Positions 40,982 through 42,818 of a stretch of 64,000 nt of DNA are shown piece by piece; positions within the stretch are counted from its first letter, which is position 1, and the number at the start of each line of letters is the position of its first letter. The notes under the pieces were generated by a model, which was not told the origin of the DNA, did no database searches, and was given only the letters and a program-made list of their open reading frames with translations. Source of the DNA: Bacteroidia bacterium (GTDB lineage: Bacteria; Bacteroidota; Bacteroidia; J057); assembly GCA_019695295.1 (NCBI GenBank), contig JAIBAH010000005.1, positions 1-64,000 on the forward strand, read 5' to 3'. The position numbers and the translations under genes are program-made.

Positions 40982-41034
40982 AAAGCCGTTTCGAGGGCTG
41001 GAAACCACTCGCAAGGCTGGGCTTAGCCGCTTCG
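40982..41034 (+). repeat. Palindromic repeat, copy B (left of the SUMF1-fold gene)
   Basis: The unit AGCC-GTTT-CGAG-GGC-TGG-AAA-CCA-CTCG-CAA-GGCT can fold on itself (AGCC/GGCT, CGAG/CTCG, TGG/CCA). It is nearly identical, over about 50 bp and in the same orientation, to copy C on the other side of the SUMF1-fold gene. It resembles REP-like elements in size and symmetry; no transposase is nearby. Confidence 0.75.
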
Positions 41035-41054
41035 TTTATCCTTTGTGGTGACCG

Positions 41055-41109: not shown

Positions 41110-41171
41110 CCGCCTACGTATGAGAGGACACCATAGCCGCCAATGGTGTCCTCTCATACGTATCATGGCGG
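41110..41171. repeat. Long perfect palindrome upstream of the SUMF1-fold gene
   Basis: Arms of 20 perfectly matched bases (41115-41134 and 41143-41162, starting TACGTATGAGAGG) flank an 8-nt loop. An outer CCGCC/GGCGG pair (41110-41114, 41167-41171) extends the stem past a 4-nt bulge, and a run of T follows (TGCTTTTTT). It could act as a terminator or a cruciform-forming element. No other structure in the window has comparable perfect arms. Confidence 0.85.
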
Positions 41172-41289: not shown

Positions 41290-42459
41290 ATGAAACCAAT
41301 TCTACTTTTCTTCTTCCTGACCTGTCTGTTTTGTATTGAAATAAAAGCGCAGGGGTATTGCTGCAATGATTACAAATCAGATATTGAGGGGTTATACAAT
41401 GATTGTGAGTACTCGCTTGCCTTGACAAAATTAAACAATATGCTAAAATATTGCGACCAATGCCAAGGCATCGCCAACAGCTGGCGCAGCAGAATACAGC
41501 AATGCCTGAACGATGCCAATGCTTCAGGCTGCCCTTGCCGGAGCAGTGGGAGTACCGATACCGACGGAGACGGAATCCTGGATATAGATGACCAGTGTGA
41601 TACACAACAGGGACCCGCCTCCAATTACGGATGCCCCGTAGTGGAGGTGGAGCAGGACTTCTGTCCGATGGTCTATGTACAGGGGGGTACTTTTACGATG
41701 GGTGACCTTTTTGGGGATGGTGAAGCCGATGAACAACCCACACATTCTGTCACTTTATCGGCTTTTTATATGGGTAAATATGAAGTCACGGTGTCGGAAT
41801 TTGAGGTATTTGTAAATGAAACAGGGTACAAAACCGATGCGGAGAAAGAGGGCTGGAGTTATTATTGGGATGGAGATTCGTGGAAAAAAAAGAACGGGGT
41901 TTACTGGAAACACGACGAAGAGGGCAATTTACGGGAAAGAAGCAAATACAACTATCCTGTGATACATGTTTCCTGGAATGATGCCGAAGCTTTCTGCGAA
42001 TGGATGAGCCGTAAATACGGAAAGACCTACAGCCTTCCTACCGAGGCGCAATGGGAATATGCAGCGAGAAGTGGGGGTAAAAAAAATAAATACGCATGGG
42101 GAAACGGGCTTACGGCAACAAACGGAGCAAATGTAGCAACCAAGAATCACTATAACTGAGAGATATTTGAAGGGAGAGATTCCTACAAATACGCTTGCCC
42201 GGTATCACAATCCGGAGTGAATGATATTGGCTTATACGGGATGACGGGTAACGTTTGGGAGTGGTGCAGTGATTGGTACGGAACCTACAGCAGTGGCTCT
42301 CAAACGAATCCTACGGGGATCTCAAACGGATCGCTTCGGGTGTATCGGGGCGGCGGTTGGCGCGGCGACGCAGGGTATTGCCGCGCCTCCTACCGCAACT
42401 ACAACTCCCCGTCCTACCGCAACTACCACCTCGGCTTCCGCCTCTCCAGGACAGAGTAA
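41290..42459 (+). pseudogene. Secreted SUMF1/FGE-fold protein gene interrupted by an in-frame TGA
   Basis: A continuous frame of 389 codons from ATG 41290 to TAA 42457-42459, broken only by TGA at 42157-42159 (codon 290). The first part has a signal peptide (MKPILLFFFLTCLFCIEIKAQ), a Cys-rich segment, a thrombospondin-type-3 calcium loop (DTDGDGILDIDDQC) and the SUMF1 domain from MVYVQGGTFTMGD through LPTEAQWEYAARSGG. After the TGA, the same frame continues the domain without loss (GLYGMTGNVWEWCSDWYG to GFRLSRTE). TGG (Trp) to TGA is the simplest origin, giving a pseudogene, a phase-variable or read-through gene, or a sequence error. TGA is a normal stop elsewhere in this window. The C-terminal end looks like a DGR variable region. 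Annotators may record two CDS: 41290-42159 and 42217-42459. Confidence 0.8.
42346..42447 (+). other. Candidate DGR variable region at the 3' end of the SUMF1-fold gene
   Basis: By my count 71 of 102 bases are G or C, against a visibly AT-rich background. It encodes RGGGWRGDAGYCRASYRN and continues to GFRLS. At the positions where DGR targets of this fold vary, the codons are cgc ggc gac, tat, tcc tac, aac tac aac tcc, tcc tac, aac tac cac ctc: all NNC except one NNT, as expected from AAY codons in a template repeat mutated at their adenines. SUMF1/C-type-lectin folds are the standard DGR target scaffold. No template repeat or reverse transcriptase is in the window, so this is an inference. 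Confidence 0.5.
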
Positions 42460-42491
42460 GTTTTTAGATTTTTTACCTTTTATCTTTGCAA

Positions 42492-42577
42492 GAAATGACA
42501 TCTTATAATAAAAAAGATGTCATTTCCTTCTTACCTTTTGCAAGAAATGACATCTTCTAATAAAAAGATGTCATTTC
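42492..42577. repeat. Two tandem copies of a 13-bp-stem hairpin after the variable region
   Basis: GAAATGACATCTT pairs with AAGATGTCATTTC in both copies (42492-42526 and 42544-42577). Each is preceded by TTTGCAA or TTTTGCAA and by TTACCTTT, so the unit is a direct duplication of roughly 50 bp. Neither copy is followed by a good T tract. The first begins 33 bp after the SUMF1-fold stop codon. Confidence 0.8.
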
Positions 42578-42595: not shown

Positions 42596-42689
42596 CGGAT
42601 ATATCCGTAGGAAGAAACCGAAGGTATATCAAAATTTCCGGATATACGGTTAGATATATCTGAAAACACGCATAAATTTTCAGATATAT
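42596..42689. repeat. Cluster of small palindromes (CGGATATATCCG and others)
   Basis: CGGATATATCCG (42596-42607) is a perfect 12-bp palindrome; a related CCGGATATACGG follows at about 42638-42649. ATATATCTGAAAA (42654-42666) and TTTTCAGATATAT (42677-42689) are perfect 13-base arms with a 10-nt loop. No gene is present in this stretch. Confidence 0.65.
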
Positions 42690-42722: not shown

Positions 42723-42774
42723 GAGCCGTTTCGAGGGTTGGAAACCACTCGAAAGGCTGGGCTTTCGCCACTTC
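42723..42774 (+). repeat. Palindromic repeat, copy C (right of the SUMF1-fold gene)
   Basis: Same orientation and near-identical to copy B: GAGCCGTTTCGAGGGTTGG, AAACCACTCG, AAAGGCTGGGCTTTCGCC. It is followed by CCGCCTACGTTTGTG and CACAAACGTATCAAAGACGG, which mirrors the layout CCGCCTACGTATGAG...CATACGTATCATGGCGG beside copy B, so a composite element of about 100 bp or more seems to occur on both sides of the gene. Confidence 0.75.
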
Positions 42775-42818
42775 ATTCCGCCTACGTTTGTGTCCCACAA
42801 ACGTATCAAAGACGGAAT
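42775..42818. repeat. Nested inverted repeat in the right-hand block
   Basis: ATTCCG (42775-42780) pairs with CGGAAT (42813-42818), enclosing TACGTTTGTG (42783-42792) paired with CACAAACGTA (42796-42805). GCCACTT/AAGTGGC (42767-42773, 42829-42835) can extend it outward into the neighbouring terminator. Confidence 0.65.

Follow-up and report, generated by a model that had tools for sequence, protein, structure and literature searches.

Paired hairpins in a 3′ module behind the variable region of a candidate DGR target gene, and a covarying hairpin in related DGRs of Bacteroidota

The DNA behind the variable region (VR) of a secreted FGE-sulfatase/SUMF1-fold gene from a Bacteroidia bacterium forms a 3′ module that either moves together with the VR of a target gene of the diversity-generating retroelement (DGR) type or is kept in place beside it, and this module carries two tandem hairpins. 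The window analyzed here comprised 64,000 nucleotides of contig C113 (JAIBAH010000005.1, positions 1 to 64,000, forward strand), which belongs to a 4.9-Mb draft assembly of 223 contigs. We tentatively read the two hairpins as the stem-loop of a DGR target site, with or without a role in termination; this reading, drawn from the comparisons below, falls slightly short of an even chance. Judged from the sequence, a role of the hairpins in retrohoming would be plausible.

The preliminary description of this DNA had reported two tandem, near-identical units with 13-bp perfect stems at 33 to 118 bp after the stop codon, and both the coordinates and the pairing were confirmed. The arms (42492-42504/42514-42526 and 42544-42556/42565-42577) are 100% complementary and identical in both units (GAAATGACATCTT and AAGATGTCATTTC), the repeat distance of the units is 52 bp, and 29 of 30 bases are identical between them. 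G-C pairs occupy 4 of the 13 positions, making the stems AT-rich. The last base of the stop codon is 42459 and the first hairpin begins 33 bp past this codon, which stands in for a VR end that only the template repeat (TR) would fix exactly. As for the tails, CTTCTTAC and ATTTCCAT contain no T run, and neither was terminator-like in the terminator scan. Single-stranded DNA folding gave −11.5 and −11.7 kcal/mol with z of −7.5 and −6.9. Chance palindromes might be expected in AT-rich intergenic DNA; however, 0 of 200 shuffles folded as well, seven perfect stems of at least 13 bp (loop 3-14) were counted in the window against none in five Markov-random windows, and the stem is kept at a second locus while the loops differ. 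These counts refuted chance, whose probability we regard as practically nil.

Table 1. Features of the target gene and its 3′ flank in the window
Feature	Position	Strand	Basis or remark
Secreted FGE-sulfatase/SUMF1-fold gene	41290..42459	+	3′ end is the VR
VR, ...RVYRGGGW...NYHLGFRLSRTE	42331..42456	+	Codon-position comparison with the VR on contig C134
Pyrimidine-rich spacer, stop codon to hairpin 1	42460..42491	+	Common to C134; weaker in two FGE gene ends of genome G004
Hairpin 1, perfect stem of 13 bp with a loop of 9 nt	42492..42526	+	Inverted-repeat scan, folding
Hairpin 2, repeats hairpin 1 in tandem; perfect stem of 13 bp with a loop of 8 nt	42544..42577	+	Inverted-repeat scan, folding
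Third hairpin of the flank (ATATATCTGAAAA stem)	42654..42689	+	Present in C134 too
3′ module common to the window and C134	42460..42698	+	91% over 67 bp, 92% over 115 bp

A profile search matched PF03781 to the target gene with 207.5 bits across a TGA, with one internal stop, and both halves of the gene matched this profile. The fold reaches the C-terminus, and the VR thus lies in the 3′ end of a gene of the C-lectin/SUMF1 fold. The in-frame TGA, at positions 42157-42159, breaks the gene; thereafter, the frame reopens through the end of the VR. Upstream of the gene, a 20-bp perfect palindrome with an 8-nt loop was also observed (41115-41162). Direct repeats of ~53 bp (40984-41036 and 42724-42777) bracket the gene, its VR, and the hairpin flank, and no further copy of their 25-base core was found in the window. 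The material between these repeats may have moved as a block.

The exact stem has three copies in the assembly, two in the window and one on contig C134, and a looser DNA search of the assembly gave no further match above noise. A second FGE gene has the C134 hairpin (15-bp stem, loop 8) ~32 nt past its stop codon; the stem sequence is the same in all three copies, and the loops vary. The fronts of the window gene and the C134 gene are unrelated, the latter being presumably serine/threonine-kinase-like, as named by sequence resemblance, while their VRs are of the same kind and both proteins end in ...GFRLSRTE. Between the two VRs, codon positions 1, 2, and 3 were identical in 28, 35, and 37 of 42 codons, and upstream of the VR in 101, 116, and 59 of 170, where 80 of 170 amino acids were identical. 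The differences within the VR thus fell mostly at codon positions 1 and 2, and this is the pattern expected from the rewriting of NNY codons from one common DGR template. Past the stop codon, the window aligned with C134 at ~92% over 239 bp of window sequence, C134 having one hairpin unit fewer, and nowhere else in the genome did the flank match above noise. Because this ~240-bp flank is ~92% alike while the upstream third positions are saturated (59/170), the hairpins are part of a VR-linked 3′ module. That the non-coding flank is more alike than the coding DNA before the VR indicates that the VR end and flank were exchanged as a unit, constrained, or both. The entire flank is conserved, not the hairpin alone, and recent copying of the module is therefore enough to account for the identity, with no need to invoke stem selection; as identical stems with differing loops come from two loci only, selection and recent copying are not separable. 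Standing behind two genes with different fronts, the module looks like a natural counterpart of the engineered target transplant in BPP-1.

Within the genome, the hairpin was found behind 2 of 14 FGE matches, namely the window gene and the C134 gene. The preliminary description had suggested a search behind other SUMF1-fold or lectin-fold genes and a test for co-occurrence with VRs, and the exact hairpin indeed co-occurred only with VR-type FGE genes (three copies, two genes). At one further gene end, on contig C193 (...GFRLSLTK), the flank is weakly similar and includes a 7-bp hairpin. Scans of viral contigs gave no match for the exact stem and none for the spacer pattern, and no match of the flank to phages and plasmids was obtained. 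An exact-stem match in one Gammaproteobacterial MAG was set aside; its core sits within a far longer palindrome, and it looks unrelated. The spacer may resemble the Bacteroidota promoter box TAnnTTTG; a sigma-70 scan of the C134 flank gave no promoter-like site.

Because the 4.9-Mb assembly has only three copies, each behind a VR, rather than many dispersed ones, another reading was weakened, namely that a miniature palindromic repeat (MITE/REP-like) landed by accident downstream of a VR gene, with which it was then copied. All Rfam matches stayed below the gathering score of their family, and most of them were miRNA models that match any hairpin. We regard this reading as very improbable, even though the units are short inverted repeats, the window gene and its flank lie between two direct repeats, and MITE-like arrays are described at Thiohalocapsa DGR loci in PMC10907252. 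A Y1 transposase with REP-like repeats ~0.6 kb downstream of the C134 copy would also fit it, except that the repeat there differs in sequence from the hairpin. This Y1 (IS200-like) transposase gene (L004 7822-8283, contig C134) is convergent with the C134 VR gene and is ringed by its own repeated GGGGCGTTAGCCCTGAAATCTTCGTA units.

A strong rival explanation is that the hairpins are ordinary terminators of FGE genes, duplicated in the window, facing a convergent gene, and copied along with the VR end, with no part in homing. In a sampled 0.18 Mb of the genome, 11 of 84 gene ends have a hairpin scoring at least 30, the score of the window hairpin; their stems are 12-24 bp, their loops 6-12, and they start 5-51 nt past the stop codon. 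The C134 VR gene is among the 11. Because so many gene ends carry equal hairpins, position and stem perfection alone are no argument for a DGR role, and the case for retrohoming that the preliminary description had built on them is not supported. Its refuting outcome, a spread of the hairpin over the 3′ ends of many unrelated genes, did not occur for the exact sequence; hairpins of similar size and position, in contrast, are common at unrelated gene ends. Intrinsic terminators of this genome resemble the window hairpins in how long the stem is, how large the loop is, and how far both lie from the stop codon, whereas the window copies lack a proper T tract and their exact sequence is confined to VR genes. 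The reported absence of a T tract held for both window copies and failed for the C134 sister copy, whose 15-bp stem with a T-rich tail (TTTTATAAAT) was scored as terminator-like by the scan. Further terminator-like sites in the C134 flank, on the opposite strand, face and would serve the convergent gene. Two FGE gene ends of genome G004 with a similar spacer had hairpin scores of 16 and 13, none of them strong. Related DGRs have a non-terminator hairpin at the same spot and only behind VRs, as given below, which speaks against termination as the whole account. Overall, we hold the terminator explanation to be quite possible while leaning away from it.

The published DGR hairpins were then compared. 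According to Guo et al. (2011; PMC3240598), they consist of a 7-10-bp GC-rich stem and a 4-nt GRNA loop, lie 4-34 bp from the VR, and are noted to resemble terminators; AT-rich stems or loops enlarged by 2 nt cost most of the activity in BPP-1 assays. The window hairpins are similar to this phage type in being perfect inverted repeats just downstream of the VR, and their 33 nt falls within the 4-34 bp. In contrast, the window and C134 stems are 13-15 bp and AT-rich, the loops are 8-9 nt and AT-rich, the window hairpin is duplicated, and TR and RT were not found. Efficient homing in BPP-1 requires that an inverted repeat follow the VR, according to PMC3240598 and PMC12875486, the latter, a 2026 reconstitution paper, calling it important though not strictly required and the integration step still incompletely understood. 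On the target-site reading, a foldback shortly behind the VR might help the complex of RT, accessory protein, and template RNA, or its cDNA, to engage the 3′ end of the VR. The window would then hold a non-canonical target site with a long AT-rich stem, an 8-9-nt loop, a ~33-nt spacer, and a duplication. The same stem-loop may plausibly end the transcript of the gene too, the C134 copy being terminator-like.

A template for the window VR, expected to end in GGCTTCCGCCTCTCCAGGACAG, was sought. A DNA search of the same genome with the 3′ end of the VR matched only the two VRs, and no template repeat was obtained. Matches of 17 bases on contig C177 were rejected as the template, being low-complexity coding repeats. 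The single RVT_1 match in the genome, on contig C61, is part of a complete DGR, which consists of an HRDC-domain accessory gene, an RT with IGNLTSQ in its translation, a template, and a target FGE gene; the motif IGxxxSQ marks DGR RTs. The C61 template differs from its target by 22 adenine-only mismatches and no others. This TR belongs to other VRs, and it was rejected as the template of the window VR by its different 3′ end (GGGTTTCGGTTCTGTCTTGC). RT searches covering 13 family genomes gave no second DGR RT in genome G000, and no RT or TR for the window VR was found in the 97.4%-complete assembly of 223 contigs. Given this result together with the in-frame TGA, the window VR may now be an orphan target.

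The contig of the C61 DGR (L039, 7.7 kb) has a 53-bp exact overlap of its ends within its VR-flank hairpin, indicating either a circular contig or a hairpin on each side of the RT-template-target unit. Beside this DGR lie genes for a Roc-COR-LRR protein with a caspase domain (L039 2495-5929) and for a protein with the effector-associated domain EAD11 (981-2498); such neighbours are as in putative bacterial conflict systems.

Next, we used the C61 RT as a query, which gave 3 matches in 13 family genomes and 45 in 395 genomes of the phylum. Loci around these RTs (41 in total) were scanned, and TR/VR pairs were called by adenine-only mismatch. From 58 TR/VR rows, 52 were kept, namely 38 of HRDC type and 14 others; the six dropped were three false TR fragments (L099), opposite-strand artefacts (L105 and L108), and one VR that runs off its contig (L101). 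Of the 38 HRDC pairs, 28 had their best hairpin, sought over the 150 nt that follow the VR, at a start 42-54 nt past the VR end and with a score of at least 23, whereas the flank of the TR had a hairpin score of at most 19 in all 38. In an alignment of 22 sequences from these pairs (A1), 94.4% of the cells pair and 12 of 17 pairs are compensatory; covariation was 0.458 compared to 0.164 after shuffling (0 of 500 reached it) and at most 0.126 when slid. A model of this hairpin (R1) matched 35 genomes out of 395, and 34 of these 35 belong to a single genus; an RT was present in 28 of the 35 genomes with a match compared to 17 of the 360 without. All 30 R1 matches examined, one per genome out of 123, lay directly behind the 3′ end of a VR, which was recognized by regular expression in 27 cases and by eye in 3. 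Thus, the general statement that DGRs have a hairpin shortly after the VR was borne out in related DGRs, where a conserved, VR-specific hairpin occupies a like distance.

The HRDC-type hairpin is similar to that of the window in its long stem, its 9-11-nt loop, its position 40-50 nt behind the VR, and its FGE-type targets; a long stem and a large loop also set both apart from the phage type. It is unlike the window hairpin in its two-part GC/AT stem, its conserved loop GAGGGACGA, and a preceding stretch complementary to the TR flank, and R1 gave no match in the window or the C134 flank. VR-specificity holds for the HRDC sister system and is no proof for the window.

Over ~27 nt, the 3′ flanks of template and VR in the HRDC type are reverse complements of each other. 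Complementarity within the same locus scored 21-39 in all 38 HRDC pairs, compared to shuffled means of 10.8-13.6; 36 pairs beat all 100 of their own shuffles and 2 tied with the best one. None of the 14 pairs of other RT types beat its own 100 shuffles, and a wider look around the TR in five of these loci (L118, L124, and L126-L128) gave complementarity at chance level only. A second alignment (A2) combined 9 of the loci with L132 into 10 distinct loci, in which 82.2% of the cells pair compared to 76.4% when shuffled and 32-50% when slid; L115 pairs over part of the stretch only, and gap placement lowers some others. Ten pairs changed on both sides, and covariation was 0.210 compared to 0.117 (0 of 500). 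In each of four genomes with two HRDC DGRs, the mean cognate score was higher than the mean non-cognate score, the exceptions among single scores being a tie of 29 and 29 (G153) and a cognate 24 below one non-cognate 27 (G272). In L132 (contig C51 of G004; seen in L058), the template and VR are adjacent, and no RVT_1 match was found on the contig; the one HRDC-type RT that the search turned up in G004 sits on contig C60.

This covarying flank complementarity suggests that the target is chosen by base pairing, and G-U pairs in both structures fit the participation of RNA. On the simplest reading, the 3′ flank of the template RNA would have as its pairing partner either one of the DNA strands behind the VR or the target mRNA. 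We found no report of flank complementarity in the accessible text of PMC10907252, PMC12875486, PMC4372165, PMC3521204, PMC4891356, PMC10053308, PMC7517822, and PMC8144416; most subscription journals lay outside this search, and the complementarity may already be known. What lets a DGR home to the VR rather than to its own template is a standing question in the field, and with covarying flank pairing in a DGR class that is common among Bacteroidota, a base-pairing model of targeting becomes directly testable. A broader proposal is that this DGR branch picks its target by pairing outside the TR and VR, plus a long hairpin, giving every DGR a flank code of its own; the window VR would then be an orphan target with another code, with the spacer and paired hairpins as its address. 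We consider this proposal rather unlikely. If it were true for the window type, the missing template would be predicted to have the purine-rich complement of the window spacer (42460-42491) directly behind it. In L118 (genome G308), whose RT is more distant, the pyrimidine spacer CTTTTACCCTTTTACCTTTTGCAGGAAA behind the VR resembles that of the window and is followed by GC-rich foldbacks.
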